DNA from: Candidatus Borrarchaeum yapensis
Lineage (GTDB): Archaea; Asgardarchaeota; Sifarchaeia; Borrarchaeales; Borrarchaeaceae
Assembly (NCBI GenBank): GCA_016840515.1
Contig: JAEOSF010000014.1
Coordinates: 1 to 64,000, forward strand
DNA: 64,000 nt
Direction of reading: 5' to 3'
The notes beneath the pieces are model-generated. The model did no database searches. It was not told the origin of the DNA and was given only the letters and a program-made list of their open reading frames with translations. Positions 25,151-47,113 of the stretch are shown here, piece by piece. Each line of letters begins with the position of its first letter. The first letter of the stretch is position 1. A program made the translations under genes and the position numbers.

Positions 25151-25195
25151 CTCGATCTACCCTCCGAATTAAACTATACTTAAATTAACATTAAT

Positions 25196-25215
25196 ATCAT
25201 ATATAAGTTTTTCTG
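25196..25215 (-). promoter_or_regulatory. TFB1 promoter with A-rich BRE
   Basis: On the minus strand AGAAAAACTTATATATG: an A-rich BRE next to a TATA box about 46 bases before the start codon. It differs from the GT-rich flank of most other element promoters. Confidence 0.6.
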
Positions 25216-25373
25216 AGAGATTTTTGGGTTATGTTATGTGATAAAATAGGATGATATGGGATTAAGTGAACGGGAAATGATTTTAGGAAAAAGGAGAATA
25301 CATGACGGAAATCGATTTTTTAAAATTGTCCTTAAAGTGACTTTAAAGAATGTTGAGATGTGAGTAAGAATAA

Positions 25374-26433
25374 TTAACGACAGTAGAAAAGAAGATTGGA
25401 CTGGTAGGTATCCTCGAAGGCGTTAGCCCATCTTATGTACTGCTTGGAGATGCAATTAAAGCTCGAATCGAGCAATAGCTCGTCGGCAATAAAAAATGGT
25501 CGGGACGTGTCATAACTCTCTATGCCGAAGGAGCGACCGTGTGTGGAAGTGTACTCCGAGTTTAATTGATGGGCGTAGTTGATTATTTCCTTTCGAGTTT
25601 CGCCCAGCAGGTGAAGGCGGGGGCGGTTGCCGTAGGGAATAAGGTGTATTTTTGGGTGGAAGATGTGAAACATTTCTTTGAGAAGTCTTTTGCTATCCCT
25701 GAGGTTGAACTCGTGCAAGGGGAAGGTCACCGCAAGGTCGATCGGACTGCATTCAAAGGAGTGGTCTTTGAGGAAACAACGTACACGCTGGGCGGATTGA
25801 CGAAACTCCTTACAGGTGGTGCCCTGAACCGTGAGGCGAAAGGTATAGCATAACCCGAGTTGTGCAAGGGTGGTGGTGTGTATCTTTTTAATGTAGTCAA
25901 GAAGTAACTCGTAACTTTGGAGGCTTTTTTGCGGATTCTGTACAAAATCGGGAAGGATGATCTGATAATGGAGAATTTTGGTTTTACGGACTATTTCCAA
26001 TTGATGTTTAAAGCGGATGATGGGATCAGAGGGGATTCTGGAAGATTTTCCGTTCTGTATTGCTTGGAACAGTTGGAAGGCACCGTTATCGATCCATAAT
26101 TCTGTGATACGCTGTGTTGAAAGGATTTTATCGGAGGCGTAGCGGTGGTAATCGAAGGGTGAGGAACATTCCCCGTAGATATTGACCATCAGTTCGTTGA
26201 ATCCGTTGATTAATTTCTGCCCTTTGTCGTTTACCATGTGCTGATACCAGTCAAGGTCGCGAGTGGTGATGACGGGCACCAGTCGGGGGTTTATATGACG
26301 TACCTCACCATCGAAGAAGTCGATGTTATAGACTGAACCATAGTCGAGTAGACTTGATGATTCTGCCCAGCTTTTCGGGGATGAGGTGTCCTCATCGAGT
26401 TCGAGTGATTCTTCATAAACACATTTTGTCATT
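25374..26433 (-). CDS. TGT/DpdA-like TIM-barrel protein (possible 7-deazaguanine transferase)
   Basis: About 353 residues, start ATG 26433 behind GAGGGG. Motifs in the order expected for tRNA-guanine transglycosylase-like barrels: WIDNGAFQ (residues 113-120, cf. DSGGFQ with the first catalytic Asp), IILPDF (158-163), PRLHLLGE (271-278) and FGIESYDTSRPF (302-313, the second Asp region). Phage DpdA enzymes of this fold place 7-deazaguanine bases in DNA to resist restriction. No preQ0 synthesis genes are in the window, so the base would come from the host archaeosine pathway. Family call moderate; DNA as substrate is inferred. Confidence 0.5.
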
Positions 26434-26477
26434 ATTGCCCCTCTGTGTATAATCTCAAAGTTCATATTCTAAATGAA

Positions 26478-26492
26478 TATATAAAGACCACG
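26478..26492 (-). promoter_or_regulatory. Element-type promoter of the TGT/DpdA-like gene
   Basis: Minus strand CGTGGTCTTTATATA: TATA box with a GTGGTC upstream flank, the clearest example of the element consensus. Confidence 0.65.
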
Positions 26493-26585
26493 AAAATAAA
26501 AAAAGAAAATATTAAGATACTTCTCTTCTCTAATGTAGTTCTAAGTGTTGTGAAAAGGAAAATAGAATAAAAAAAGAAAAATAGA

Positions 26586-27755
26586 TTAGAGTGAAGTTAT
26601 GTAGAAGTTGGACAGTTGGTTTTCCTTTGTGAAAAGGATCGCGTCTTGAAGCGTCTTAAATTCTTTTTGTTCTTTGCCTTTCGATGTGGAGTAGGTTACG
26701 CGGTGTGTGTCATGTTCTTCTGGTGTTGGTATCATCTTTTCTTCTTTTTGTCTATCACTTATTTTTTCGATGAGTTGATAATTGTTATCTGCATCTAAGA
26801 AAACAACTTCCTGTTGTTTTAATTCTTCTAAAGCGTCCAAAAAACTGTAGTATTCATCTTTGGTATCGAACTTTTGTTTGATGAGAGCTCGCCTTAGTTC
26901 GTATTGATCGCCTCGTATTTCTGATATTATCCATTCTTTTAATTTGTCAATCTCGGTTCTTATCTCATCAATTATAATGTATTTCTGTCTTTTTTCATCG
27001 AATTTGATGATCTTATTTTCTATTAGAAATTCAAAGGCTGGTTTGAAGTATATTTCGTGGGGTTCTTTTGCGAATAGTCCTCCTTTTATTGCTCTCTGGA
27101 GTTCTTCTGTGTTTTCGGATTTGATTTGAGTCAAAATCCAATTATTGTATTTTTCTGAAAGAAAAGCATGGTTATTTCTTTGTTCTTCTGTATGTTCGTC
27201 TTCTGTGTGTTGTGTTTTTGAATGTGAATTGTTTAAAGTGGATTCTGCTTCTATTTCATCTTCTTCTAAGTTAAGGGTATTAATTTCGGTATCTGTATCG
27301 GTTGCATTTTGCTTGACTACGAAAAAGTATCTATTCATTGAAGAATCAAAGGCTAGCAATCCTTCTCGATACATTTCTTCAAAGACTGTTCGACATAGTT
27401 CTTGCACTTCAGCGGGTGTGTTGGTATCGTTGCGGTTTATTATACTTAGTAATTGAACTTGGTCGGTGTCATCGATCTGAGAAATGATCCAATTTCTCAT
27501 TTTTGTCCTATGTGTTTCCTCTTTTGTTGGTTTTGTATCTGTTGCTGTTTTATGACTGATTGTTTTAGTTTTTGTGGTGTTTATTGTGCAGTAGTATCCG
27601 TTTGAAATTAGTGAGTTAACGATGCACTGTTTACACAAATCTGTTGTGATATCATCTTCTGAATGAATACAGTGATTGTGACATTCACGTAGTATTAGTT
27701 CAATTTCTACCTCTGGTTCGCGTTTTTTTGTTTTCGGTTTTTCTAGTATTTGCAT
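26586..27755 (-). CDS. Protein with cysteine cluster, three winged-helix-like repeats and a C-terminal RYxV module
   Basis: About 389 residues; ATG 27755 behind GAGAGG. N-terminus: CHNHC...CKQC zinc-type cluster (residues about 25-45). Then three related about 60-residue units starting WIISQI, WILTQI and WIISEI and ending in a hydrophobic wing (RYFFV, KYIII, NYQLI), separated by acidic linkers. The last about 40 residues (HRVTYSTSKG..FKTLQDAILFTKENQLSNFYI) match the end of the protein at 41761-42654 and the start of that at 54661-55605. Probably DNA-binding; no known family recognised. Confidence 0.65.
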   Translation of the reverse strand: MQILEKPKTKKREPEVEIELILRECHNHCIHSEDDITTDLCKQCIVNSLISNGYYCTINTTKTKTISHKTATDTKPTKEETHRTKMRNWIISQIDDTDQVQLLSIINRNDTNTPAEVQELCRTVFEEMYREGLLAFDSSMNRYFFVVKQNATDTDTEINTLNLEEDEIEAESTLNNSHSKTQHTEDEHTEEQRNNHAFLSEKYNNWILTQIKSENTEELQRAIKGGLFAKEPHEIYFKPAFEFLIENKIIKFDEKRQKYIIIDEIRTEIDKLKEWIISEIRGDQYELRRALIKQKFDTKDEYYSFLDALEELKQQEVVFLDADNNYQLIEKISDRQKEEKMIPTPEEHDTHRVTYSTSKGKEQKEFKTLQDAILFTKENQLSNFYITSL

Positions 27756-27789
27756 GATTATTCCTCTCATAGAATTTCATCAAAGAATG

Positions 27790-27803
27790 TATATAAAGAC
27801 CAC
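27790..27803 (-). promoter_or_regulatory. Element-type promoter
   Basis: Minus strand GTGGTCTTTATATA, 35 bases before the start of the winged-helix-repeat gene. Confidence 0.65.
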
Positions 27804-27842
27804 TAAGTTTCTATGTCTAAATGAAAAAAAAGAAAATGAGGT

Positions 27843-28136
27843 TTAGAAAAGATTTGAGATTCTAGCGTGGATTTTTTTGAGAAGAAATTTGAAGTAAGAG
27901 TAGTGTTGTTTTTTGTTTGTCTTGTGGTGTTTCTTATGACCTAGCGCGCAGGAAAGGCATAGAATAACCTTGCAGATTTTACAATAAAACCCTCTGCGTT
28001 TGATCTTGCCTAACACTCCGAGAAACGCATCGCCGCAGATGACGCACTCGAAATTCTCTTCGTCCAAGGTGTTCAAAATCTCATCTTCAAGTTGGCACAG
28101 GGGTACTACGCCCTCAATAAATGAGTCGTCCTTCAT
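27843..28136 (-). CDS. Small zinc-binding protein (B-box/FYVE-like cysteine pattern)
   Basis: About 97 residues. An acidic N-terminal half is followed by CVICGDAF...FYCKICKVILCLSC-x4-HKKHH, eight or so Cys/His in a spacing like double-zinc treble-clef domains. Basic C-terminus. Sits six bases downstream of the DUF4314-like gene in the same transcription unit. Function unknown; probably binds nucleic acid or protein. Confidence 0.6.
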   Translation of the reverse strand: MKDDSFIEGVVPLCQLEDEILNTLDEENFECVICGDAFLGVLGKIKRRGFYCKICKVILCLSCALGHKKHHKTNKKQHYSYFKFLLKKIHARISNLF

Positions 28137-28141
28137 TTTGA

Positions 28142-28339
28142 TTACTCCGTTATGACTTTGTAGCGGTCGATGCCTTCAAGTAGAGCTAGTTTGCTTCCGT
28201 CGTCCCAATTTACCCAGATTTGTTTCTGACCTCCGAGAATGGTGTCAATTCCTGTGACGGTGCCTGTATCGCCTCGTTTGAGGTGAGTGTATGGATCGCT
28301 GGTGTGTGTGAGTTCTATTCGATCGCCGATTTTTACCAT
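28142..28339 (-). CDS. DUF4314-like small protein
   Basis: About 65 residues: MVKIGDRIELTHTSDPYTHLKRGDTGTVTG, then IWVNWDDGSKLALL. This SH3-like fold with the T-SDPYT-L-GD-GTV pattern matches the DUF4314 family, frequent in phages and plasmids. ATG 28339 is chosen because GGAGG precedes it by eight bases; an upstream in-frame TTG would put the Shine-Dalgarno inside the gene. Confidence 0.7.
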   Translation of the reverse strand: MVKIGDRIELTHTSDPYTHLKRGDTGTVTGIDTILGGQKQIWVNWDDGSKLALLEGIDRYKVITE

Positions 28340-28387
28340 ATTGACATCCTCCAACAATTTTTGAACTAGAAAAAAGGAAAAAAAGGG

Positions 28388-28765
28388 TTAGTATTCTTCT
28401 GGAAGTAGGATGGTGTAGTATCCATGATCGTTTAAGCAGATGAAGACCTGTTGTTGCTCTCCTGATGGAAGTTCAATCATGCCCTCATAAAAGCGGTCTT
28501 GTTGCTCGGTGAAATTATTACTCCGTTTCTTTACTATTGCCAAGCATTGATTGAGAAGGTCGTACAGGTTAGGGATGTTTAAGCCCTCGTCGGTCTTGTA
28601 TCCCTTGCTCATGACTCCCATGGTGACATGAGAAAAGAGTCCTTTCTCCCAGTCGTTGTTTATGGTGAACAGATAGAACAGGGTGCCATCTTCCATCGCG
28701 TCGTCGGATGTGTAAACTGAGATCGGTTCGCCAAACAGATCATTTTCATTGTGTGGAATTGTCAT
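28388..28765 (-). CDS. DUF6573-like small protein
   Basis: About 125 residues; ATG 28765 directly after GGAGGG. NDLFGEPISVYTSDDAMEDGTLF near the start and a C-terminal TILLPEEY resemble the DUF6573 family of phage and plasmid proteins (FGE-I-YTR--A--DG... and ---LPEDY). Role unknown; such genes lie in early or accessory regions of phages. Confidence 0.6.
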   Translation of the reverse strand: MTIPHNENDLFGEPISVYTSDDAMEDGTLFYLFTINNDWEKGLFSHVTMGVMSKGYKTDEGLNIPNLYDLLNQCLAIVKKRSNNFTEQQDRFYEGMIELPSGEQQQVFICLNDHGYYTILLPEEY

Positions 28766-28808
28766 ACCCTCCGATTGGTGTATTTCACTATCCAATTTCT
28801 AAATGCCT

Positions 28809-28822
28809 TTATAAGCACCCCG
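28809..28822 (-). promoter_or_regulatory. Element-type promoter variant
   Basis: Minus strand CGGGGTGCTTATAA, about 43 bases before the DUF6573-like start. Confidence 0.5.
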
Positions 28823-29037
28823 TTTTTATGGAAAAGCCCGTAGCATTAAGAAAAGACGATAAGATCAAAAGAGAGAGAAGTTTAAGAAAAAGGATCAATT
28901 TGAAGACAGACTAAATATGTACTAAATCAATCATCTTAGAGATCACTATTACTATTTACTCAATTTCGTTTTATATAATATTATATTGATTGATGACAAA
29001 AGAGAACAGAAAAAAAGAGAGGGGATATTAAAAGGGG

Positions 29038-29235
29038 TTACTCCATATTGGCTACTAAGGAGTGTAGGAATTGATCTTCATACAGGGCATTGTGTGAATC
29101 TATTTTATCTTGTGGGCAACAGGGGCAGCCTTTGCCTTGTCGAAATCTGTGAGCTTCTGCGGGTGTCATATCGCCGTGCCGTATGCCGAAACTATCCCAG
29201 AGTTCGCCACAAATCGCGCATACAATATCTCCCAT
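29038..29235 (-). CDS. Small zinc-ribbon protein of phage type
   Basis: About 65 residues: CAICGELWDSFGIRHGDMTPAEAHRFRQGKGCPCC. The two cysteine pairs flank the WDS-G-R-GDMT-EEA pattern that I recall from small proteins of actinobacterial phages and plasmids. ATG 29235 with GGTG upstream; an ATG 12 bases earlier is also in frame. Function unknown. Confidence 0.6.
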   Translation of the reverse strand: MGDIVCAICGELWDSFGIRHGDMTPAEAHRFRQGKGCPCCPQDKIDSHNALYEDQFLHSLVANME

Positions 29236-29291
29236 ATTGTTCACCATGTTGGTATTTTATGACCTTTCTGAAAAAAAAGAGGAAATGAGGG

Positions 29292-29876
29292 TTAGACTGA
29301 AATCTTCTGCTTGTTTAACTGAGTGATCCAGTCCCCGTTTCTGCGTGCTTCAGCGTCTTGTGGGGCGTGTGCCATGACTGCATTGAGTTCGACTTTGCTG
29401 TAGTTATGTGTGTTTTCTAGTATGAAAAGCGCATCTTCAATGGTGTGTCGTTTATGTAGGGTGAGATGTTGATAGCGTGCTTTCAGCATTTTCAGGTCGA
29501 GATACTCTAGGGGATTTTGATTAAACAGTAGGTTGTAAATGATGGAAAGTTCCGTTTTCTGACCTAATCGGTCATGTGTGGTGATTGGTTCGTTGGGGAT
29601 AGGCAAAAGGTATTGTTTTAAGGTATCTACCTGATCTAGTGTGAGAATTTCCTGTAGTGTGCCAGATGTTGTGGGTTTGATACTAATGATAAGAGGGTGA
29701 TTGCTGACTGCGGGGATGGGTTGTGTTCCTGTGGGATCTCCGATTATATGAGTGAGTTCGATGTCGAATTTGTTTTCCAATACTTCGCTAAGTACGTCCG
29801 TGATTTTGAACATAGATTGAGTGAGTTCTTGGTTAGGTTGTTCATCTTTCAATTTAAAGACACAAACAAGTTCCAA
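29292..29876 (-). CDS. Hypothetical element protein, 194 residues
   Basis: No family recognised. Starts MELVCVFKLKDEQ; the middle has IISIKPTTSGTLQEILTLDQV and the C-terminal half is helical. Good Shine-Dalgarno-like GGGAGG upstream and an element-type promoter at 29934-29948 support a real gene. Confidence 0.6.
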   Translation of the reverse strand: MELVCVFKLKDEQPNQELTQSMFKITDVLSEVLENKFDIELTHIIGDPTGTQPIPAVSNHPLIISIKPTTSGTLQEILTLDQVDTLKQYLLPIPNEPITTHDRLGQKTELSIIYNLLFNQNPLEYLDLKMLKARYQHLTLHKRHTIEDALFILENTHNYSKVELNAVMAHAPQDAEARRNGDWITQLNKQKISV

Positions 29877-29933
29877 TTTTTATTCCTCCCTAAGTTGTGT
29901 GTTGGTAAGATCGTAAACTACCTTCAAACAGGA

Positions 29934-29948
29934 TTTAAAAAGACCACG
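29934..29948 (-). promoter_or_regulatory. Element-type promoter
   Basis: Minus strand CGTGGTCTTTTTAAA, same GTGGTC flank with a TTTAAA-type TATA box, 58 bases before the 194-residue gene. Confidence 0.6.
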
Positions 29949-30019
29949 TTTTTTTAGTCGGTTTAAGGGACTCTATGAGAGAAGAAATGATACTCATCTA
30001 ATTTCAGATGTAATGTGGA

Positions 30020-30196
30020 TTATCTCCATTTAATCGAGTTCCTTTTCTCTGAGATATGTTTAGGGCAAAGGTCTTGAGTGACGGTTCCGTCTTGATAGAC
30101 GGTAACTTTGCCTTGTATCCTGAGTATCTCGATTAAATTGAGGACTTCCTTGTACTATGGTTGTTTTGCGCATTCATCACAGATGTGGAATTTCAC
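30020..30196 (-). pseudogene. Small zinc-protein gene with one in-frame TAG
   Basis: A 59-codon frame starts at GTG 30196, nine bases after GGAGG. It reads MKFHICDECAKQP, then TAG (30155-30157), then YKEVLNLIEI... to a second cysteine motif DLCPKHISEK and TAA. CDEC before and CPKH after the TAG together make a plausible zinc knuckle, so the two parts look like one gene. Either a nonsense mutation, readthrough or recoding. Genes elsewhere in the window stop with TAG (DUF424, radical SAM), so TAG is not simply reassigned. Confidence 0.55.
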
Positions 30197-30216
30197 AGGT
30201 GTTTCCCTCCTGTTTC

Positions 30217-30585
30217 TCATAACCAATGATGTAGTGATTTAACTTCTGCATCTGATAGACTTTGTGATTTAACTTCAGATTCCGTGATACTGATTACAGT
30301 ATAGTTCTCTGGATCGAGGATATGTTGAGTTAATTTCATTATGTAACCTATCCTGTCTTTTTCATACTTGATGCGTTCCTTTCTATTTGTGGTGAAATCA
30401 TCGGGGAAATCAATAAAAAATTCTACAGTTTGCTGGTCGAGATCGATCTCGGTGGTTCGAGTTGCGATGTCGCCACAAGATTCAACAACATCAGTAAGAA
30501 TTAGTTCTTGGTCATTGTTTTCTCCATGTGAGTAGCGTGCGATAACTTTGAAGGTTCGCCAACATTCATCCACTTGTGTTGTCAT
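30217..30585 (-). CDS. Hypothetical element protein
   Basis: About 122 residues from ATG 30585 (MTTQVDECWRTFKVIARYSHG). Charged alpha-beta protein, no family recognised. Overlaps the 3' end of the small upstream gene by 20 bases, suggesting translational coupling. Confidence 0.55.
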   Translation of the reverse strand: MTTQVDECWRTFKVIARYSHGENNDQELILTDVVESCGDIATRTTEIDLDQQTVEFFIDFPDDFTTNRKERIKYEKDRIGYIMKLTQHILDPENYTVISITESEVKSQSLSDAEVKSLHHWL

Positions 30586-30772
30586 GTTTAGTTTCCATCT
30601 CCTTGAATCGTTTGTCAATTTTAATGATCCATTCGGCATGAGTGTTCTTGTCTAGTTTGGTGTTTAGGGAATTACGAATAAGTTTCATCATTTCTTTTTG
30701 GCAACCGTGTATTTGATCTTTTGGAAGTAATTTTAATGCGATAATGGTTCTTATTCTGTGAAACGGTTTCAT
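30566..30772 (-). CDS. Small basic hypothetical protein
   Basis: About 68 residues, rich in Lys and helical (MKPFHRIRTIIALKLL...HAEWIIKIDKRFKEME). Lies in the PCNA1 transcription unit and overlaps the next gene. No family recognised. Confidence 0.45.
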   Translation of the reverse strand: MKPFHRIRTIIALKLLPKDQIHGCQKEMMKLIRNSLNTKLDKNTHAEWIIKIDKRFKEMETKHDNTSG

Positions 30773-30807
30773 TTTATTTCACTCCACAAAGAAATTGAAA
30801 AAAAAGA

Positions 30808-31149
30808 TTATGAGAGGTCGATAGGTCTAATGATCTCGGTCTCCGAAAGGGGTGCTAAGTTGTGTTCTTTACGGATCGCGTTAGTGCGTTCAATTACCTC
30901 GTCAATGAGATCATCGGGCTGAGTGTAAGTTTTCTCGGTGAGTTCGCCCTTGGAGTAGGAAAGAAGTTTGAAGACGGTTTTGCCATCTTCTGTGCTTTTG
31001 CCGAAGAAAATTCGATCATTCGAGTAGGTTTCAATGGAGTTCTTGAATTGAAGTCCTCGCAACACAACGCAACTAGGTGTACGAAACAGTTGATCGGGGA
31101 TCTGATGACGTACTGTTACCACATTGCTTTTTGGTTTTACTTCTGTCAT
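30808..31149 (-). CDS. Hypothetical element protein, 113 residues
   Basis: No family recognised. N-terminal strands (VVTVRHQIPDQLFRTPSCVVLRGL), C-terminal helices (LIDEVIERTNAIRKEHNL). Its ATG overlaps the stop of the upstream zinc protein (ATGA type), so both are translated together with PCNA1. Confidence 0.6.
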   Translation of the reverse strand: MTEVKPKSNVVTVRHQIPDQLFRTPSCVVLRGLQFKNSIETYSNDRIFFGKSTEDGKTVFKLLSYSKGELTEKTYTQPDDLIDEVIERTNAIRKEHNLAPLSETEIIRPIDLS

Positions 31150-31562
31150 TTTAATTCATCTCCATTGTTCTCTTGTACTTGCACGTTTGCGTTCTTGAGA
31201 CATTCGATCAAAGTGGTCATGGTGTCGGGATCGGATTCAAAGACGGTTAGATCGGTTGCATTATCAATCAACCTGACTCTGCCCTCAATCGTACCATCGC
31301 GAACGGAAGTCCAAAAAAAGCCCTGTTGTCCGAGTAATCCCTTTTGGGTGGCGGTGAGAATATCGGAAATTGACAACGCTGATCCACGTTCGAGTTGCAG
31401 CATTTTGAGCAATATCTCGATTTTGAAGATTTTTTTCCAATGGGGATTTTTGGAAATCCATTCCTCTCGGCAATTCTCGTTACACCATTCAAGGGTGCCA
31501 AAGTGCGTGACTTCAATGGGTGTGTCGCAATTCTTACAGGCAACTACCTTTGTCATTAGCAT
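31146..31562 (-). CDS. Zinc-finger protein linked to PCNA1
   Basis: About 138 residues. N-terminal treble-clef-like zinc site ACKNCDTPIEVTHFGTLEWC-NENC, followed by a helical/winged-helix-like region (ISDILTATQKGLLGQQGFFW). Starts six bases after the PCNA1 stop. Possible clamp- or DNA-associated factor by position only. Confidence 0.6.
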   Translation of the reverse strand: MLMTKVVACKNCDTPIEVTHFGTLEWCNENCREEWISKNPHWKKIFKIEILLKMLQLERGSALSISDILTATQKGLLGQQGFFWTSVRDGTIEGRVRLIDNATDLTVFESDPDTMTTLIECLKNANVQVQENNGDELK

Positions 31563-31567
31563 TTTTT

Positions 31568-32338
31568 CTATTCGCCTCCCTCGATCCGTGGAGCTAAGAA
31601 GTAGTCGAGTTGATATGTTGGAGCTAGGATCCCAAGTTTAAGGGGCATATCGGTGGAGTATTCGATTTTAAGGTAGTCAAATGCGCCGACGGTTTTAGTC
31701 ATATCACTGAGGTATTTGAGGGCGTAGATAGCCTGAGATTCCGCTTTTACTTGGTATTCTCTGAGATTATCGCTTTGTTGTGACTCTGAGGCATCAATGA
31801 TAACTTCGACCTCTCCCGAGTCGCCATCAGAGGTGACTTTGATTCTCTCGGGTGTTGCTTGTAACGTGATGTAGTCGCCCACTACTTCGGCATCCTTAAG
31901 GATGTTCTTGAAGGTGGATGCTGACATGGAAATCAGGGTGTCGAATTTGATGTCGGGGATAGGGATATCCTCTCCGCTGTCCTCACCTAACAGTGAAAGA
32001 CTGAAATTGCGGGTAGCTTTTTCGGATTTGAGTTTGAGGTTCAGTTTGTTCTTAGTTTCATCAACGGTGAGTTCGAGGGTGTCGTCGTCGGTTGATCGTC
32101 GCATGATCTGCGTCATTTCTACCAGACTAACACCAAACGCTACTGAACCGTTGCAGTGATATTCCGTGAAGGAATTTGGTGAGAGTGCAAGATCAACCAT
32201 TGCTATATGAGCTTCATCGATAGCACGGGCATGGATGCCCTCGTCATCGGAGATAAAATGAATCTCCTTAACAAGAGCGGCTAATGACTCGGTGATGTTT
32301 TTCCAGATGTGTGCGTCAAGAGTGACTTTTACTACCAT
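31568..32338 (-). CDS. PCNA-like sliding clamp 1
   Basis: About 256 residues, the normal PCNA length. Archaeal/eukaryotic clamp features: N-terminal KVTLDAHIWKNITESLAALVKEIHF, EGIHARAIDEAHIAMVDLALSP (cf. D-SHVALV in the family), a central loop and a C-terminal YLKIEYSTDMPLKLG..YQLDYFLAPRIE (ending in the APRIE-type tail that receives partner peptides). Encircles DNA and recruits PIP-box proteins; FEN1 and possibly TFB1 of this element carry such peptides. Its promoter flank is GTTGTTCTCCTTAAATAC. A host PCNA must also exist elsewhere. Confidence 0.92.
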   Translation of the reverse strand: MVVKVTLDAHIWKNITESLAALVKEIHFISDDEGIHARAIDEAHIAMVDLALSPNSFTEYHCNGSVAFGVSLVEMTQIMRRSTDDDTLELTVDETKNKLNLKLKSEKATRNFSLSLLGEDSGEDIPIPDIKFDTLISMSASTFKNILKDAEVVGDYITLQATPERIKVTSDGDSGEVEVIIDASESQQSDNLREYQVKAESQAIYALKYLSDMTKTVGAFDYLKIEYSTDMPLKLGILAPTYQLDYFLAPRIEGGE

Positions 32339-32418
32339 AACACAAACCTCACATATTTTGTTGGAAATTTGTATTTAAGGAGAACAACTTTTTACAAGGT
32401 GCAAAAAAAGGAAAGGAA

Positions 32419-32889
32419 TTAGGGTGTGCGCTGTGAACTGAAGTCCGTAGTGTGTGAACGATTTTGGGTGGAGACTGTAGAATCATCTTTAAGGAGATAA
32501 TCAAGCATTTTAGCGACAATTTCAGATTCAATGTGTTGTGATTGTCGAATCGGTGGAGTCATGGCGACAGAGATTAGTTCCTCTCCCTCATCTGTAGGAG
32601 GAAAGTCATAGTGAGTGATAGAGTCAAAATGACCGTTGTGATTTAGAAGAGCTTGCAGAATTTGGATGGAAGCATCTTTCTCAAAACCTGTATAGACTTG
32701 TCTGAGTTTGTCTGTGCGTCCATTGGATATAACTAAGACGGGCTTTCCTTTTTGAAGGATAAGTTCAAAGCGTGAGTTGAACTTGCCATGTGGATCGTAG
32801 GTGTCACGCATTTGAATAGACCATTGAAGGACAAGCAAGCCGTTTTTGCTGTCATCAAAACCGATTTCTACTTTCGGTGTGCCTTTCAA
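32419..32889 (-). CDS. Hypothetical element protein, 156 residues
   Basis: Beta-rich N-terminal half (KVEIGFDDSKNGLLVLQWSIQMRD; FELILQKGKPVLVIS) and a Ser/Thr-rich tail. No family recognised. Own promoter (minus strand CGGGGAGTTTATAAA, about 32937-32951). Confidence 0.55.
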   Translation of the reverse strand: MKGTPKVEIGFDDSKNGLLVLQWSIQMRDTYDPHGKFNSRFELILQKGKPVLVISNGRTDKLRQVYTGFEKDASIQILQALLNHNGHFDSITHYDFPPTDEGEELISVAMTPPIRQSQHIESEIVAKMLDYLLKDDSTVSTQNRSHTTDFSSQRTP

Positions 32890-33044
32890 ATGTGATCCCC
32901 TCTAAAAAGTTGTCATAAATTACCTTCAAAATTGATTTATAAACTCCCCGTTTTTTTAGTCGGAATGTGGGGTGATGAAATTAGTTGAAAAGGATGAGGG
33001 GTTCGTAAAAGTTACAACATTCCAAAAGAAACATAATGTCGATG

Positions 33045-33260
33045 TTAGATTTTTTCAAGGAAGTAGGTACAGTCGGATTTGCTGATCTCGCCCTGTGACT
33101 CAAGAAACGAGATGCTTTGGATTATTTCATCGTAGGTGTACTGACGTTTACTACGAATCAATTCAATCAGCAGATGTTCATTGATGCCGAGTAATGGAAC
33201 GAAACTCTTCACATCCTCGACTATCTTGATGAATTTTTGTATAACAATTATCTCCAGCAT
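33045..33260 (-). CDS. Small hypothetical protein
   Basis: About 71 residues, winged-helix-like (YTYDEIIQSISFLESQGEISKSDCTYF). Starts next to the stop of the upstream regulator. No family recognised. Confidence 0.5.
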   Translation of the reverse strand: MLEIIVIQKFIKIVEDVKSFVPLLGINEHLLIELIRSKRQYTYDEIIQSISFLESQGEISKSDCTYFLEKI

Positions 33261-33261
33261 T

Positions 33262-33579
33262 TTATCGCCCTAAATCTTGCAATGCGAAGTAATAGACCTT
33301 TGGTCGTCCTGGTGTTTTCCGATCTTGTGAGAAACTGTCAACTAAGTCTTGAGCAACAAGTCTACTCAAAGCATTGATGACAGTGGTGAGTGGGATTTTG
33401 GTAATTTTTGACAGTCGTGGTCTTGTGGATGGACCTAGGTGAACAAGGAGTTCATAGACATATTGTGTCACCGAGAGGTCGGTTTCGGCAAATTTGCCCC
33501 TGCCCAAGTAGGTGTATCGCTGACCGAATGATCGCGTTTTTTTGATGGGCGGATGATTCTCTGTAGTGGTTCTTGTCAT
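33262..33579 (-). CDS. Winged-helix DNA-binding protein (MarR-like)
   Basis: About 105 residues. Residues 40-100 form a clear winged helix: VTQYVYELLVHLGPSTRPRLSKITKIPLTTVINALSRLVAQDLVDSF, wing KTPGRPKVYYF. Its ATG overlaps the stop of the upstream gene (ATGA). Likely transcription regulator of the element. Confidence 0.7.
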   Translation of the reverse strand: MTRTTTENHPPIKKTRSFGQRYTYLGRGKFAETDLSVTQYVYELLVHLGPSTRPRLSKITKIPLTTVINALSRLVAQDLVDSFSQDRKTPGRPKVYYFALQDLGR

Positions 33580-34094
33580 GGCAACTCATCTCGCGCGTGC
33601 TGGTTCTTTTCTGCTTTTGCAAATAATTGGTTTAAGGTGGGTTGTATGCCTGCCCAGACCCTCCAGTTGTGGATGGTGGTACGATTGAAAAGGGTAATCT
33701 CACTATCATCGATTTTCTTGCGCTTCTTGGATGTTTTTTTGCTGGATGTTTCTTTTGGAATATGAGTTATCTCACCAATTCCCTCCTTACTAAGAGTCGC
33801 TTGTGAAACGAACTCGGTGTGGGTGGTGATATGATTGATCGTTTTCCCGGTGAATAAATTTGTCTGTGCGGTGGTGAGCGTCCTTTTTTTCTTGTTATTC
33901 CGATGGTTGTTGTTCTTGTGTTGTTTACGCTTTTGAAGAATGATGACCTCGCCCTCGATCAATGATGGGATCTTATATCTGATCGTGGGTTCCTCACTTT
34001 CTTTTGGAACGAGTAAACTGTCATCCCTTATTTCCTCAAGTTCTTGTGTGGTGAGTCGTTTGCCTTTCGAGTTGCCGATTTTCACTTCTGTCAA
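33576..34094 (-). CDS. Basic hypothetical protein downstream of PCNA2
   Basis: About 172 residues. TTG 34094 is taken as the start: it overlaps the PCNA2 stop (TTGA) and lies after GGAGG, so translation is coupled. Central region is Lys/Asn-rich (KRKQHKNNNHRNNKKKR) and may contact DNA. No family recognised. Confidence 0.6.
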   Translation of the reverse strand: MTEVKIGNSKGKRLTTQELEEIRDDSLLVPKESEEPTIRYKIPSLIEGEVIILQKRKQHKNNNHRNNKKKRTLTTAQTNLFTGKTINHITTHTEFVSQATLSKEGIGEITHIPKETSSKKTSKKRKKIDDSEITLFNRTTIHNWRVWAGIQPTLNQLFAKAEKNQHARDELP

Positions 34095-34843
34095 TTGGTT
34101 GCCTCCTGAGAACGATGGGCGAGATAGAAATGGTAATCGGTGAAGTCTATGCAAAACGAAATATTAAGATGGGTGTTGGCTAATGCTAAACGAAACTCCT
34201 GCTTATTGCTAATCACGTTAGCGCATTTCTTAAGGTAATTGAGGGTGTAGATGCCATGAAAGTGTGGTGTGTTATCCTGATGACCATTATCTTGATTCAA
34301 AGATACGTTATGAGAGGCGGTGCTCTCACCTTCAAATGACTCAAATGAAAGCTGATCATAGTCCGATTTGATGGCAACACATTCGCTTGCTACCTCGATG
34401 TCCCTTACTGCTTCTTTCAAGTTCTCGCCCAGAAGGTCGAAGGTGGCATTATACGGTTCGTCTGGAACGGGGAGGTCGGCGATCTCGGTGCTGATGAGAT
34501 GGGTTTTGAAACTACGAGTCATACCATTGTGCCGATAGTTCAGAATGAATTTGTTCTTGGATGTGTCGATCCTGATCTCAATATCGGCATTGGTGGTTAT
34601 CCGTCTGGCAATTTCAAGACAATTAGGAAGGTATATGCCAAAGTTTATCGCTTCATCGCAATGATAGGATGAAAAACATTCTCTTGGGAACACGATGTCG
34701 AACATGGCCGCTTGGGTGTCGTCACAGGTCTTGACATGAAGACCGTTTTGATTGGCATAAAAGCCAACTTCTTTGGTTAGTTTTTGTAGACATTCGAGAG
34801 TCGTTTTCCATGGTCGAATTGACTCTAAAGTCATAACAATCAT
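34091..34843 (-). CDS. PCNA-like sliding clamp 2 (diverged)
   Basis: About 250 residues with the PCNA layout: TLESIRPWKTTLECLQKLTKEVGFYANQNGLHVKTCDDTQAAMFDIVFP, a second domain from about residue 125, and C-terminal NISFCIDFTDYHFYLAHRSQ. It lacks the APRIE-type C-terminal end of PCNA1 and is more diverged. Archaeal clamps can be heterotrimers, so it may assemble with PCNA1 or the host clamp, or form a specialised ring. Own element-type promoter at 34886-34900. Confidence 0.85.
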   Translation of the reverse strand: MIVMTLESIRPWKTTLECLQKLTKEVGFYANQNGLHVKTCDDTQAAMFDIVFPRECFSSYHCDEAINFGIYLPNCLEIARRITTNADIEIRIDTSKNKFILNYRHNGMTRSFKTHLISTEIADLPVPDEPYNATFDLLGENLKEAVRDIEVASECVAIKSDYDQLSFESFEGESTASHNVSLNQDNGHQDNTPHFHGIYTLNYLKKCANVISNKQEFRLALANTHLNISFCIDFTDYHFYLAHRSQEATN

Positions 34844-34885
34844 ATTGATCCCTCAAGTGAAGTCCACTAACCAAGTCTACCTGAC

Positions 34886-34900
34886 TATATAAAGACAACG
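34886..34900 (-). promoter_or_regulatory. Element-type promoter of PCNA2
   Basis: Minus strand CGTTGTCTTTATATA, GT-rich flank plus TATA, 43 bases before the start codon. Confidence 0.65.
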
Positions 34901-34945
34901 TAATTGTGGGGGTGATGGCAGGAGAAAAAAACGACAAAAAAGAAA

Positions 34946-35074
34946 CTACCAAAGAAAGAAGGGGTAACGAACTGTTGCGGGATCGTTGGTTACTCTATGG
35001 TGAAATACGTTCAATACATTTGTAATAGTCCTCGAAGATCGTTTGACAAACTTCTCATTTTTAGAATCAAACAT
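34946..35074 (-). CDS. Possible 42-residue protein
   Basis: ATG 35074 overlaps the stop of the upstream gene and opens a 43-codon frame rich in basic residues (KFVKRSSRTITNVLNVFHHR). No Shine-Dalgarno is visible and no family is recognised, so this is weak. Confidence 0.25.
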   Translation of the reverse strand: MFDSKNEKFVKRSSRTITNVLNVFHHRVTNDPATVRYPFFLW

Positions 35075-35756
35075 GACAGGATGCAACTGTTTCCTTGAAT
35101 TTATTATAGTCGCCTATAATATCTTGGATAGTGCCTTTGTCAATACTTGTTTCATGCGATATTTCTTCGATTGAAAGTTTTTTGAACTCATTTAGAAGGA
35201 TAACATCTAAGTAAGTCCATTGTTTGAAGTTTCTGGATGAAGGATCAAACTTCTCATAGGAGACTGCTAACCATTTTAAATCGCGTTTGGTGTTTTTGAA
35301 AGCAATTTCTGCTGATTTTGTTTCGATTCTGATTATGTCGTTTGTGAAAGGTTCTGATGGATCGCTCGTTTGTAGTTCTTCGAGTTGTTGTCTAAGGATA
35401 AAGCGAAAAACTTCTTTGATGGAGTCGAAAATATGTGCAACAATAGCAACCTCTTGTTCTGTGAGTCTTTTGGTGTTGAGTGGGATATCGCTGAAATCAA
35501 TAAGTTTGATTACGGCGTTTCTGATAGCCTCTTCATGTTTTCCGATAAAGGATAGAATGATGTCATCAAGGGTAAAGACTTCACCGCAAGCCTTGCACTT
35601 ACATTTTAATATGTCGATGTCCAAAACAGTCATTTTTTTGAGTAATGACTCAACTCTTATTTGATTATCTGATTCTTCTTCTGGATCAAGTTCTCCCATA
35701 AGTTCACTTAACTGAATATCGAACCATAGGTCCTGAAGTGTGTCGCAAACACACAA
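35067..35756 (-). CDS. Zinc- and HTH-containing hypothetical protein
   Basis: About 229 residues. A CxC-xx-C cluster (ILKCKCKACGEVFTLDDI) in the first third, a long helical middle, and a C-terminal sigma-like helix-turn-helix (LSIEEISHETSIDKGTIQDIIGDY). Suggests a DNA-binding regulator. No family recognised. Confidence 0.6.
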   Translation of the reverse strand: MCVCDTLQDLWFDIQLSELMGELDPEEESDNQIRVESLLKKMTVLDIDILKCKCKACGEVFTLDDIILSFIGKHEEAIRNAVIKLIDFSDIPLNTKRLTEQEVAIVAHIFDSIKEVFRFILRQQLEELQTSDPSEPFTNDIIRIETKSAEIAFKNTKRDLKWLAVSYEKFDPSSRNFKQWTYLDVILLNEFKKLSIEEISHETSIDKGTIQDIIGDYNKFKETVASCHV

Positions 35757-35805
35757 CTCCCTTATATTGTTATCGTTTGATATTTCATAACACTCTCCTT
35801 TGAAA

Positions 35806-36216
35806 TTAAACGGTTATTGTGTTTGCAAGATCGGGGTGTTGTTTATCCTCGCTGGTATCAAAAAAGAAATCTGCCCACTTGGAAAGCACGGTTTCTACCG
35901 ATTCATCTTTTACCTTGATTATTTTCTCAACAAATTCCTCCATTTCATCGCCATCAAAGTGTCGCCAAGTAGGATGTTGTTTTTTTAGTTTTTCTACTCC
36001 TTTGATGAGTAAAGTGCGATAATCTTCGTCCATTTGCTTATATGTGCCTTCAGCAAGTTTAATTTCTTCTTCTGAAAGTTCATCAAGTGGTAATTGAAGT
36101 TCAATAAAATATTTCGCTCTTCTGATTCCTGCTTTCACTTCGTTACTGTGCTTTAGGAAAAGGGCATCAACAGGTCTTAGTGATTCATAAATATCGCTCA
36201 CAAAATCATCCTCCAA
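35806..36216 (-). CDS. Hypothetical acidic helical protein
   Basis: About 136 residues, helical and acidic (LPLDELSEEEIKLAEGTYKQMDEDY). Shine-Dalgarno GGAGGA just before the ATG and a promoter with TTTTTATAGG at about 36246. No family recognised. Confidence 0.55.
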   Translation of the reverse strand: MEDDFVSDIYESLRPVDALFLKHSNEVKAGIRRAKYFIELQLPLDELSEEEIKLAEGTYKQMDEDYRTLLIKGVEKLKKQHPTWRHFDGDEMEEFVEKIIKVKDESVETVLSKWADFFFDTSEDKQHPDLANTITV

Positions 36217-36354
36217 TACTATCAGTCACAAGGTAATTTTAAATTTACCTATAAAAACTAAGCGTTTATTTTAGGCTATGGTTGGATGAAAAACAACAAA
36301 TGACGAAAAAGGAGAGAGAAAGGCTTTTGCATATTGAGAAAAATAAAAGATGGA

Positions 36355-36495
36355 TTAGTATAAGCCCTCGTTGTAATGATCCTTTATTGTAGCTGGTATT
36401 TCATCAACTTTGTTTATTAAGTCACAGCAGCATGGATCCAAACTACAGTGGCGACAAAGAGCCCCTTTTTTCTTATGAGTTTTTTCCTCGATCAT
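36355..36495 (-). CDS. Very small cysteine-rich protein
   Basis: About 46 residues from ATG 36495 (GGTAC upstream): MIEEKTHKKKGALCRHCSLDPCCCDL, five cysteines and one histidine within 14 residues, probably one zinc site. Own promoter (minus strand CGCTTAGTTTATATA, about 36531-36545). Confidence 0.5.
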   Translation of the reverse strand: MIEEKTHKKKGALCRHCSLDPCCCDLINKVDEIPATIKDHYNEGLY

Positions 36496-36655
36496 TTTTA
36501 TAGTACCTCCATAAGTTTTATTCAAAAAAACTATATAAACTAAGCGCAAAAGGTATTAGTCTAGGTGTAGAAATCTGGGAAAGGAGAAAACCTAAAAAAT
36601 ATATGGCAAAGGATGACACGGGCATTTACTTGGATGAGTAAGGAAAAAAATTAAC

Positions 36656-36958
36656 TCAGAGAACCCACGAAACCGTTGTGGTTTTTTCTGGTGGATCAAC
36701 AAAAGAAGGGATCAGCAAGCTGTCGTTATATGTCCGTACATTTGTCGCTCTGTCGAGGTCGTACAGAAAGCATTGTGGTGTGATGAATACGCGATGAGGA
36801 ATTTTATCCGAGAGGATAAGACGAGTGATGCCCTGAATCGTTTTAACTCGACAAACATCATCGTGAGGGATGATCTCCAACTCTACGGTGTCGGGTGGAT
36901 ACCAAAAGATCGTGCGAATGTTATGAATAAGTTGTGTGTTGATAACTTTCTTCGTAAT
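36656..36958 (-). CDS. Small hypothetical protein, paralogue of the next upstream gene, probable ATT start
   Basis: About 100 residues. The first ATG in frame lies 78 bases inside, but the translated sequence before it (INTQLIHNIRTIFWYPPDTVELE) aligns with INTQLFRNIRFMCFYPPDTIELE of the gene at 37031-37312. The frame opens after a TAA, and the only suitable start is ATT at 36958, seven bases after GGAGG (36966-36970). Shared core also includes V-TI-GI-R-ILS. Function unknown. Confidence 0.6.
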   Translation of the reverse strand: MTKKVINTQLIHNIRTIFWYPPDTVELEIIPHDDVCRVKTIQGITRLILSDKIPHRVFITPQCFLYDLDRATNVRTYNDSLLIPSFVDPPEKTTTVSWVL

Positions 36959-37030
36959 TTAGAATCCTCCACTCATTCTTTTTTCGATGGTGTTTTTGAA
37001 ATCTGATTTGAAGAGAGTGTTATGTTTTTT

Positions 37031-37312
37031 TTAAGATTTGAGTCGTGCTGAGGTATGATGGTAGAAAAACAGGAATTTGTTGATCTTTTTTACTGTAACA
37101 AACTCGGGAAAGTCAAAAGCTATGAGTTCTTGGTTGTTGTTGGTGACTAAGGGGTTTGAGTGCATGGTTAAAATAAAATGAGCGATCCCTGTGAGAGTGA
37201 TTATATGGCAGGTGTTGTTATGGGGGTTGATAGTTTCTAACTCAATGGTGTCTGGCGGATAAAAGCACATAAATCGAATGTTTCGGAACAGTTGAGTGTT
37301 GATGGTTGGCAT
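37031..37312 (-). CDS. Small hypothetical protein, paralogue of 36656-36958
   Basis: About 93 residues, MPTINTQLFRNIRFMCFYPPDTIELE start, then NTCHIITLTGIAHFIL. Beta-rich, no known family. Preserved similarity with its neighbour in sequence but not in bases shows both are under protein-level selection. No antisense gene is needed to explain the open frames on the other strand. Confidence 0.6.
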   Translation of the reverse strand: MPTINTQLFRNIRFMCFYPPDTIELETINPHNNTCHIITLTGIAHFILTMHSNPLVTNNNQELIAFDFPEFVTVKKINKFLFFYHHTSARLKS

Positions 37313-37327
37313 AATTCATGGAACCCC

Positions 37328-37987
37328 CTAATAGCCTCTCATCTTCTCATAGATTTCGTTAACTTTCATTGAATTGTCATCGACAGTACCTTTGAGTTCA
37401 GAGATCGCTTTTTTTAAGGATTCAACCTCTGAGGTACTTGTAGCCTGAGTAGTATCGCCTTTCGATGGATGGAAGGAGTTGAGTTGTTCCTTCAGTCGAT
37501 TAATTTCTAGTTCAAGTGTGTCGATACGAGCTGAGTCGTCGTTTCTAGTGGGGATTTCATTGGTTTTTTCTAGTGTGTGAGCAATATCTTCAACTTCCTT
37601 TAGTCTCTGCGATAAACTATTTACGTTCTCAGATAGTTTGTGTATCTCCTCGTCGGAGATTGAAGAGGGTGGGGTGAGGATGGTCGCTGTGGCACTAAAC
37701 TTTTCGACTTGTTTGATAATTTCTTCGACAAAAGCAGGGCGTACATCGATGTGCTGTTGTTTGACTCTTTTAAGAAGACCAAATTCTTCTTGAGCGTTCA
37801 ACCATTGACTCCATGAGGATTTGTTTGAGGGCGTGGCATCTTTGTTGTAGTCATATCGAATAAGTATCCATTTTTTCCTTACAAGTTCATCGAGTCTTGT
37901 TACGCAATCTTCTAAGCCTTGTTCAACGCCCGAGACACGTTCGTTTAACGTCTTTATTTGTTGTTCTAAGGATTTAGTTTTAGACAA
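37328..37987 (-). CDS. Coiled-coil protein
   Basis: About 219 residues with heptad-rich helices at 1-35 (LEQQIKTLNERVSGVEQGLEDCVTRL), 105-160 and 185-215 and a conserved-looking globular core (KKWILIRYDYNKDATP). TTG start seven bases after GGAGG, overlapping the upstream stop. Probably structural or a dimeric adaptor; no family recognised. Confidence 0.6.
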   Translation of the reverse strand: MSKTKSLEQQIKTLNERVSGVEQGLEDCVTRLDELVRKKWILIRYDYNKDATPSNKSSWSQWLNAQEEFGLLKRVKQQHIDVRPAFVEEIIKQVEKFSATATILTPPSSISDEEIHKLSENVNSLSQRLKEVEDIAHTLEKTNEIPTRNDDSARIDTLELEINRLKEQLNSFHPSKGDTTQATSTSEVESLKKAISELKGTVDDNSMKVNEIYEKMRGY

Positions 37988-38405
37988 AATGACGCCTCCT
38001 GATTGCTTCTGCGATCCCTTGATGGATGTCGCAGAAATGATGCCATGTGCTAGTGGTATAATCTAATTGACTGATCGTGGCCACATCACCACATTCTTCG
38101 CATTCCTGCCACACACGATGCTTTCTCCATCGTATACGTGTGTGTGCATGAGGAAGATCAAAAAAAGTGCTTGTGCGGATGATGACAAGCTTACTCATAT
38201 CTTCATTTGGATAAAACATCCAGCAACCTCGAAGTAAGGCTGGAAAACACTTACTTCGATGGAGAAAAAGGACATAAGCGCGAGTTGAGTTAGGGATATC
38301 TATTGATTGTGTTTCTTCTGAAGACTGTCGAATGTGTTTAATATTCAACATAATTAACATCACGGTGTGTAGTTGTGCGGTCAGTATCTTTTTCACAAAA
38401 GACAT
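37980..38405 (-). CDS. Zinc-binding hypothetical protein
   Basis: About 141 residues. C-terminal CEECGDVATISQLDYTTSTWHHFCDIH gives a Cys3-His type zinc site. The N-terminal 25 residues may be non-coding; an internal ATG could be the true start. No family recognised. Confidence 0.5.
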   Translation of the reverse strand: MSFVKKILTAQLHTVMLIMLNIKHIRQSSEETQSIDIPNSTRAYVLFLHRSKCFPALLRGCWMFYPNEDMSKLVIIRTSTFFDLPHAHTRIRWRKHRVWQECEECGDVATISQLDYTTSTWHHFCDIHQGIAEAIRRRHFV

Positions 38406-38758
38406 AGGCTGACATTCCTTGGAAGAGTTGATCGCGGTGTTGTGTGTATTAATATTAATCTACAATTAAAATACCATTAATGTACTATATAAAGGAATCG
38501 ACTACTTTTGCGAATGAGATTTTTGATTAGTAGGATGTGATATGACGAAATATACTCCAAAAAAAATAATAATCAAATATCTCTTTCGTTTAGAAGTAGA
38601 ATAATATTCTACGTAAAGAAACAAGTAAACAAATCACTTTCGATAAACTCAATACAACATATCAGATTAATAAAAAAATAAGTCAAATTAAAATAATCGT
38701 TTGTTTTAAAAAATTTATATAAATAAAGAACGAGTAAACAACATTGGCATGAAGTGGC
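38406..38758. other. Intergenic divergent promoter region
   Basis: Holds a promoter for the minus-strand block (CCTTTATATAG, about 38484-38496) and the plus-strand TFB2 promoter; AT-rich, no further gene seen. Confidence 0.5.
38703..38722 (+). promoter_or_regulatory. TFB2 promoter with A-rich BRE
   Basis: TTTTAAAAAATTTATATAAA: host-like A-rich flank joined to TATA, about 40 bases before the TFB2 start. Contrasts with the GT-rich flanks of other element promoters. Confidence 0.6.
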
Positions 38759-41685: not shown

Positions 41686-41760
41686 TAAAACTACCCCTAG
41701 ACAATGATATAGCGCGGTATTTAAACTCCGCTCTTAGAAACAGAAAAAAGTGAGAGAGAG

Positions 41761-42700: not shown

Positions 42701-42717
42701 TATAAAAACACAACGCG
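42701..42717 (-). promoter_or_regulatory. Element-type promoter
   Basis: Minus strand CGCGTTGTGTTTTTATA, GTTGTG flank plus TATA, 47 bases before the 297-residue gene. Confidence 0.55.
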
Positions 42718-44548: not shown

Positions 44549-44562
44549 TATTTAAAGACCGC
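44549..44562 (-). promoter_or_regulatory. Element-type promoter
   Basis: Minus strand GCGGTCTTTAAATA, 34 bases before the coiled-coil gene; it abuts the 3' end of the 827-residue gene. Confidence 0.6.
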
Positions 44563-47097: not shown

Positions 47098-47113
47098 TAT
47101 AAAAACACACCGC
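47098..47113 (-). promoter_or_regulatory. Element-type promoter
   Basis: Minus strand GCGGTGTGTTTTTATA, 45 bases before the 827-residue gene. Confidence 0.55.

Follow-up and report, generated by a model that had tools for sequence, protein, structure and literature searches.

A divergent TFB family, G-rich promoters and a possible two-step expression design on a probable mobile element of Candidatus Borrarchaeum yapensis

The described systems closest to the one reported here, in which a probable mobile element of the Asgard archaeon Candidatus Borrarchaeum yapensis encodes two divergent homologues (TFB1 and TFB2) of the transcription factor TFB/TFIIB and carries a G-rich class of promoters, are found in haloarchaea, in Sulfolobus and among viruses. 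The window analysed comprises positions 1-64000 of contig C13 (JAEOSF010000014.1) of a 3.63-Mb genome; the element begins at 23589 and continues as far as the contig reaches (71,960). An A-enriched B recognition element (BRE) is the archaeal norm, and the second cyclin fold of TFB touches the BRE (PMC7289017). Haloarchaea likewise possess several TFBs, in multiple TFB/TBP sets with some promoter specificity (PMC7289017); unlike there, one TBP gene was found here, and a divergent TFB family with a helix of its own goes with a G-rich and not with an A-rich BRE. Sulfolobus TFB3 is likewise a TFB paralogue with a special role, reported to act in trans with the canonical TFB (PMC7289017), whereas the proteins described below keep the zinc ribbon and both cyclin folds and accompany a distinct BRE class.

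TFB folds are also known from viral genomes (Saccharolobus solfataricus rod-shaped virus 1 and giant viruses), and in BFVD such viral proteins are matched by the TFB2 model; here, unlike there, the promoter class lies on the same element as the TFB, and IMG/VR yielded no relative with TFB2 and the family alignment (A1) as queries. SIRV1 and SIRV2 have a virus-specific GTC motif beside TATA (PMC5569661), described as downstream of it, whereas the G-rich hexamer reported here stands directly upstream, in the BRE position. Large elements are likewise described from Asgard genomes, namely aloposons and HeimV (PMC8813620), in the main text of which the words TFB, TFIIB and PCNA do not occur; aloposons have tandem genes for proteins of 3,000-6,000 aa, none so large being present in the C13 part of our element, which runs off the contig and whose longest open reading frame (ORF) has 832 aa. 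No title or abstract start found names an alternative TFB of Asgard archaea or a BRE rich in G, in a coverage that leaves most subscription papers and preprints outside.

The divergent TFB family

TFB1 (23825..25150, minus strand; 441 aa, with an N-terminal extension of about 100 aa) is matched by the Pfam TFIIB model (27.8 bits, cut-off 23.6; E-value 2.7e-6) and aligns with the family. TFB2 (38759..39793, plus strand; 344 aa) has no Pfam TFIIB match and was recognised by the family profile and by its AlphaFold model, both of which match TFB structures. The profile (alignment A1) matches the TBP-TFB-DNA structures 1ais and 1d3u at 2.2e-7, and the cysteines of the zinc ribbon (CxxC...CxxC; C11, C14, C27 and C30 in TFB2 numbering) are invariant in the six-row alignment. 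The TFB2 model (mean pLDDT 78.4) superposes on 1ais_B (Z 16.8, rmsd 3.0, 184 residues) and on 1d3u_B, the TFB chain of the TBP-TFB-BRE complex (Z 16.6, rmsd 3.3, 194 residues). TFB2 is accordingly modelled with the two cyclin folds of the TFB type, its predicted C-terminal helix-turn-helix (HTH) being read from the alignment only. The NCBIfam model of canonical TFBs (PRK00423.1, cut-off 384 bits) gives 38.8 bits for TFB1, 37.1 for TFB2 and 86.5 for a chromosomal copy on contig C18; with scores so far below the cut-off, we regard these proteins (hereafter alternative TFBs, alt-TFBs) as a divergent paralogue family and not as canonical TFBs.

Relatives of TFB2 (E-value <= 1e-5) occur in 175 of the 227 genomes of the phylum, six of which (G020, G031, G167, G168, G169 and G181) have weak matches only (E-value > 1e-9), possibly to canonical TFBs; among good genomes the fraction is 41/45. 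The helix aligned with the canonical C-terminal HTH reads EYS[IV]RDH in 29/29 loci, these being the best whole-protein matches and not all 175 genomes, a restriction made because loci L111-L144 were partly picked by a pattern containing the helix. The canonical TFB copies of this genome (n = 7) have T[ED]VT[IVL]R[NT]R at that helix; TFB1 (QYSVRDH), TFB2 (QYSIRDH) and a third copy on contig C79 (EYTVRAH) are none of them of the canonical TEVT[IV]RNR type. In canonical TFB it is this helix that contacts the BRE.

In a tree from which the canonical row L005 was excluded because of a wrongly chosen ORF, TFB1, TFB2 and the C79 protein group with chromosomal copies of Borrarchaeota/Sifarchaeota (support 99/97), although all three are flagged as long branches and their exact position is unsure. 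The genome yielded a single TBP gene besides several TFBs, which departs from the haloarchaeal combination of multiple TBPs and multiple TFBs and makes it unlikely that the promoter class is chosen by TBP.

Promoter classes in the element and a second region

When started from TTTATATA as seed, expectation-maximisation (EM) over 49 upstreams of the element gave GNKGTC right before [TC]TTWWAWA; the class (G-BRE) can be written as a degenerate G-N-[GT]-G-T-[CG], approximately, directly before [TC]TT[AT][AT]A[TA]A. The log-likelihood was 137.9, versus a mean of 59.6 (SD 6.5, maximum 78.7) in 40 dinucleotide shuffles. Taken separately, the information of the six columns of the BRE, with weighting by motif share, is 2.83 (shuffles: mean 1.62, maximum 2.90), which is not significant by itself. 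Stronger support for the class comes from its transfer to two other contigs, C79 and C9, where the motif trained on C13 scores at least 10 bits in 11/27 upstreams (null mean 0.35). The initial annotation had assigned a GTGGTC type to most genes other than those of the TFBs: the G-rich class itself is borne out, while its share is about half of the element promoters with a TATA (14/30 by an unbiased pick, a conservative count given that the automatic pick missed the GTGGTC promoter of 25374-26465), and literal GTGGTC precedes TATA at three element promoters only (26478-26491, 27790-27803 and 29934-29947). G-type promoters are confined to the left part of the element, with 14/23 before 58 kb and 0/7 after it (p = 0.007); none was thus seen among the tested promoters of the right-hand block (58000..64000, continuing to 71,960).

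G-type TATA contexts make up 25/54 in the element regions versus 5/192 in host upstreams, by a score derived from the element motif and with gene-length and spacing limits that differ between the two sets. A genome-wide search for GTKGTCTTTWTATA with at most one mismatch gave 39 matches, 20 of them within the three regions of C13, C79 and C9 (2.1% of the genome), a fraction that is partly circular because the limits of the C9 region were set with the sites in view; C13 alone holds 7/39, and the reversed control had 20 matches over the whole genome.

Promoters of the same G-rich class are carried by C79 from 23,358 on, a point at which the synteny with G177, another genome of the genus, ends at the RNase P RNA gene, and by C9 from about 19.6 kb on; the two contigs could, to judge by gene directions, be joined at their ends. 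C79 carries its alt-TFB gene at 25802-26878, the start of which is overlapped by a 23-codon ORF behind GGAGGG (26863-26934, within L058), a possible case of translational coupling. A BLASTP comparison of the C13 genes with those of C79 and C9 revealed matches between the TFBs only, at 38% identity. The 79-bp promoter/leader of TFB1 (25154..25232, minus strand), by contrast, shares 97% identity with the one before the TFB gene of C79, and it matches nothing else in the genus (four genomes); recent promoter exchange or duplication may be one route to such a pattern. The host flanks end 18.4 kb apart on contig C5 of G177, that of C13 at 332,717 (inside the 16S rRNA gene) and that of C79 at 351,139 (where the RNase P RNA gene ends). 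C13 and C79 may therefore be opposite ends of a single element or island that has an outward-facing TFB gene close to either end, or they may be separate but adjacent; that they are independent elements was rejected as unproven, the host flanks being so close. Between the two flank ends G177 has a 167 aa gene with GTGGAC before its TATA; because of this location and because it has a relative on C79 (39% over 57 aa, 5e-8), it was not counted as a host gene.

The TFB genes have promoters of the other kind. Directly before TATA stand GAAAAA at TFB1 (AGAAAAACTTATATA, 25214-25200 on the minus strand; AGAAAAA CTTATATA as A-rich BRE plus TATA, 25200..25214) and AAAAAA at TFB2 (TTAAAAAATTTATATA, 38706-38721 on the plus strand; TTAAAAAA TTTATATA), so that the A-rich BREs noted earlier for both genes are confirmed, within a few bases of the positions first given. 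With TATA chosen without regard to the flanking bases, at least five A are present in the hexamer of 3/3 TFB genes (TFB1, TFB2 and that of C79, whose site was added by hand, with the printed register one base off and the A count unchanged) versus 1/46 other genes of C13, C79 and C9, the sole one being 59938-60504 (Fisher p = 2e-4). No G-type site was detected within 300 bases upstream of eight TFB genes of the genus (TFB1, TFB2, C79, C18, G177 C3, G177 C7, G175 and G176). The TFB-gene promoters thus agree with the canonical A-enriched BRE, from which the G-rich class departs.

For comparison with the host, 33 tRNA upstreams (9 of 12 plus 24 of 34 matches, some of those from G177 C1 being masked or lying inside tRNA clusters) were inspected: a TATA-like site at -39 to -56 was found in 10/33, and 9 of those 10 have at least three A in the six bases before it, a by-eye count that three orthologue pairs reduce to seven distinct cases. 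Among the canonical TFB genes, 1/7 has an A-rich site, AAAAAC-TTTAAATA (locus L006), and the other six show no clear site by eye.

The chromosomal circuit, other Asgard genomes and rival readings

Chromosomal alt-TFB copies with the same helix are present in this genome on C18 and C103. The alt-TFB genes of C18, G177 C3 and G177 C7 adjoin a secretion ATPase (type II/IV) together with partner genes, and that of C103 adjoins partner genes; the C18 ATPase scores above the cut-off of Pfam T2SSE and below those of the FlaI and TadA models. The five chromosomal alt-TFB genes that were aligned, from four genomes, have an A-rich promoter, with TAAAAATA- or GAAAAATA- before [CT]TTATAAG in four and AATAATA in G175. 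A GAAC-N5-GTTC-like site is conserved above this promoter in the five aligned upstreams; the inverted repeat above TATA is of the GAACTATTTGTTC type (L057, L059, L061, L062 and L063, the last C being replaced in G175 and G176) and is likely the operator of some regulator. Footprinting, in comparisons of two to three genomes of one genus, revealed conserved G-rich promoters beside the chromosomal alt-TFBs: CGCGGAC-TTTAAATA (CGCGGACTTTAAATA), identical in 3/3 genes from two genomes, for an Arf-like GTPase, GCGGGG-TTTATATA (GCGGGGTTTATATA) in 2/2 for an SF1-type helicase and G[CT]TGG[CT]-TTTTTATA in 4/4 for a 92 aa membrane gene. Away from the alt-TFB, a gene of 93-98 aa has GTGGTC-TTTATATA (GTGGTCTTTATATA) in 3/3.

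Outside the genus, a small gene that in our reading of the sequence is pilin-like lies within about 6 kb of the alt-TFB in loci of Hermod-, Thor- and Heimdallarchaeota and in one of Lokiarchaeota; BLAST found it in 26 of 45 loci, and its products gave no Pfam match (two tested) and no NCBIfam match (one tested). At least three G are present in the pre-TATA hexamer of the pilin-like gene (for instance GTGGGG-CTTAAATA and GTGGTG-TTTTTAAT) in 17/26 loci, versus 6/145 control genes of the same loci (p = 2e-12, a value overstated by the relatedness of the species, although three different lineages show the G-rich hexamer). The TATA alternatives were chosen after viewing the pilin upstreams and then used equally on the controls, among which sit a few pilin ORFs with long starts.

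The initial annotation had proposed an early class read by the host TFB and a later class read by the element TFB. A two-step design is plausible, as judged from the promoters and the changed helix; the opposition of host and element proved too simple, since the host itself carries alt-TFBs with the same helix (C18, C103) and conserved G-rich genes, and the relevant contrast is that of canonical TFB and alternative TFB. The element may thus be able to use the host's copy as well. We favour, with moderate confidence, a two-TFB, two-BRE circuit of the host, leading from canonical TFB to alt-TFB to G-BRE genes, that was taken over by the mobile element. One TBP and two kinds of TFB would serve two promoter classes in the Asgard host, canonical TFBs reading A-rich BREs and the divergent alt-TFB, with its changed BRE-side helix, reading the G-rich BRE directly before TATA. 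The alt-TFB would bind the G-BRE and canonical TFB presumably would not; because the alt-TFB genes stand under A-rich promoters, canonical TFB would have to make the alt-TFB first, which would then turn on the G-BRE genes, and this would set the order in time. The mobile element would have acquired its alt-TFB from the lineage of this host and placed roughly half of its own genes under control of the G-rich BRE, resulting in a self-supplied second wave of transcription. The sequences themselves reveal the two classes of promoter, the homology to TFB, the alteration of the helix, a similar chromosomal arrangement and a G-rich promoter of the gene read as pilin-like in several Asgard groups. More tentatively, we put forward the wider proposal that an ancient second Asgard TFB acts like an alternative sigma factor, steering RNA polymerase, together with one TBP, towards G-BRE promoters, that of the pilin-like gene near the TFB gene in several Asgard groups included, and that large mobile DNA of Borrarchaeum captured it and had many of its own promoters rewritten to match.

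Several observations weigh against this interpretation. About half of the element's TATA promoters are not G-type. The comparison of A-rich hexamers was post hoc, and its 3/3 TFB genes are really two cases, because TFB1 and the C79 gene share one promoter sequence; if C13 and C79 are parts of one element, their shared features need not be independent. De novo EM on 287 and on 434 host upstreams returned an AT-rich blur only, with no clean canonical TATA/BRE motif, and TATA counts in the host are alike on both strands (192 sense versus 175 antisense); for these two reasons we claim no host consensus and took the tRNA promoters instead, so that the label "host-like" leans on the tRNA genes, the chromosomal alt-TFB genes, 1/7 canonical TFB genes and the literature. 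Exact GTKGTCTTTWTATA sites occur in 34/227 genomes of the phylum, with 16 sites in the genus versus none in control columns; outside the genus they are not enriched, the 32 sites in 223 genomes being below the reversed control. Asgard genome G115 contains three TFB2-like genes in an 80-kb stretch that lacks any G-BRE site. Upstream of one of the three, the hexamer before TTTTATATA is the G-rich GGGAGC, and A-rich promoters are thus not a universal rule among TFB genes. The three G115 genes, one with an inner stop, lie within 46 kb (C69:105614-151180, L204-L207), and pairs of neighbouring genes there appear similar by eye; this is possibly another TFB-bearing element, one without G-rich promoters.

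Of the alternatives, the one that survives best holds that the host's chromosomal alt-TFB (C18/C103 type) reads the element's G-BREs and that the element TFBs raise the dose or tune the specificity, with no element-driven cascade. The chromosomal alt-TFBs with the same recognition helix, the existence of G-BRE genes in the host and the position of the element TFBs inside the Borrarchaeota/Sifarchaeota clade (99/97) are in keeping with it, but C13 carries two alt-TFB genes and C79 a third, and a promoter 97% identical over 79 bp beside proteins of 38% identity suggests that the extra copies matter; we consider this alternative rather unlikely. Less likely again is that TFB is not the reader and that an ordinary DNA-binding regulator, sitting against TATA, has the G-rich hexamer as its operator. 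The element does encode HTH-like proteins (60717-62339 above the Pfam cut-off, 49808-50341 weak), and regulators of archaeal viruses and plasmids with BRE-overlapping sites are known (PMC5569661); the length of the hexamer and its zero spacing to TATA nevertheless fit a BRE, and a G-rich hexamer at the same place marks genes linked to alt-TFB in other Asgard groups.

An action like that of Sulfolobus TFB3, in trans with canonical TFB and without reading the BRE, has a precedent (PMC7289017) and would suit the strong divergence of the alt-TFBs, far under the NCBIfam cut-off for canonical TFBs; yet the alt-TFB keeps the zinc ribbon, the two cyclin folds and the helices of the C-terminus, and shows a conserved change in the helix that aligns with the BRE-side HTH, which renders such an action improbable. 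That the A-rich hexamers of the TFB genes are mere AT-rich sequence, split by chance in a post hoc test on few genes with AT-rich intergenic DNA, is very improbable in view of the A-rich promoters conserved at chromosomal alt-TFB genes in four genomes and the 97% identity of the promoter in front of the TFB gene on C79.

Further features of the element and significance of the TFB-BRE pairing

The left end of the element follows from comparison with G177: positions 1-23588 of the window are syntenic with G177 C5 at about 91% identity, with gaps, and the synteny stops at 23588, inside a 16S rRNA gene that is whole in G177. Rfam did not report the resulting 116-base 16S piece of the window (23473-23588). 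On C9 (2580-2625, L079) a 46-base 16S-like piece spans the same point as this junction. The 16S piece at the host-element junction may mark an integration site, a captured rRNA piece or an assembly artefact. The stretch from 56 to 64 kb has only short gene matches (65-72%) in the genus and no syntenic match, and we take 23589 to 71,960 as one probable mobile element, the right end of which is not reached and which may be a virus, a plasmid or an element of another kind. In the syntenic part, a TnpB/IS605 OrfB-like gene (18393-19568) lies in a stretch missing from the G177 region (gap 18389-19659).

Genes were called as simple longest ORFs with table 11, without UAG-pyrrolysine recoding. UAG is recoded as pyrrolysine in this lineage (PMC9723677), with which the tRNA-Pyl(cta) candidates reported by ARAGORN at L089:7397 and L016:15248 are consistent. 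The element encodes a PCNA homologue, a PCNA/Rad9-like protein, an XPG/FEN1-type nuclease and a radical SAM protein similar to spore photoproduct lyase, and in its right part, beyond the window, a Rad51-family recombinase (Pfam match, L009). Two clamp-type genes are thus found on one element, PCNA at 31568-32338 and a second at 34091-34843 whose matches to PCNA and to Rad9 models are of about the same strength. Pfam recognised no integrase and no virion protein among the 29 element proteins scanned, out of the 58 ORFs of the window part plus those of L009; PHROGs gave two matches among 10 proteins, both of unknown function, and a 14-base direct-repeat search around the element gave one 16-base match. 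The segment 43297-43448 is 80% alike to C9:18874-19025 over 154 bp; both are apparently non-coding, and a replication or integration site is possible.

The individual G-BRE promoters lie on the minus strand unless stated. GTGGTC stands before TTTATATA at 26478..26491 (gene 25374-26465) and 27790..27803 (26586-27770) and before TTTTTAAA at 29934..29947 (29292-29876); GTTGTC before TTTATATA at 34886..34899 (the PCNA/Rad9-like gene 34091-34843) and 48687..48700 (48220-48636) and before CTTATATA at 49222..49235 (48715-49191). Before TTTAAATA are found GCGGAG at 41718..41731 (40096-41685) and GCGGTC at 44549..44562 (44240-44515), and before TTTTTATA GTTGTG at 42701..42714 (41761-42681), GGTGTG at 47098..47111 (44570-47068) and GGGGGC at 54328..54341 (53850-54254). 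The remaining two are GGGGTG CTTATAAA at 28808..28821 (28388-28795) and GGGGAG TTTATAAA at 32936..32949 (32419-32889). Three sites are G-BRE-like, namely GTTCTC CTTAAATA at 32372..32385 (the PCNA homologue 31568-32338), TGTGTC TTTTTATA at 51767..51780 (51254-51715) and, on the plus strand, GAGCTC TTTTTATA at 50474..50487 (small ORF 50542-50757).

For the question of how far archaeal TFB paralogues give true promoter specificity, this host offers a clean, testable case: a single TBP is combined with two families of TFB that differ in the BRE-side helix, and two BRE classes occur in the same cell. A few proteins and short pieces of template DNA would suffice to examine the pairing of TFB and BRE in vitro, for which we name the promoter sequences GTGGTCTTTATATA, GCGGACTTTAAATA and AGAAAAACTTATATA. 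If the pairing is true, the TFIIB-type system of close relatives of eukaryotes would contain a sigma-like switch, and mobile DNA would carry its own copies of that switch.

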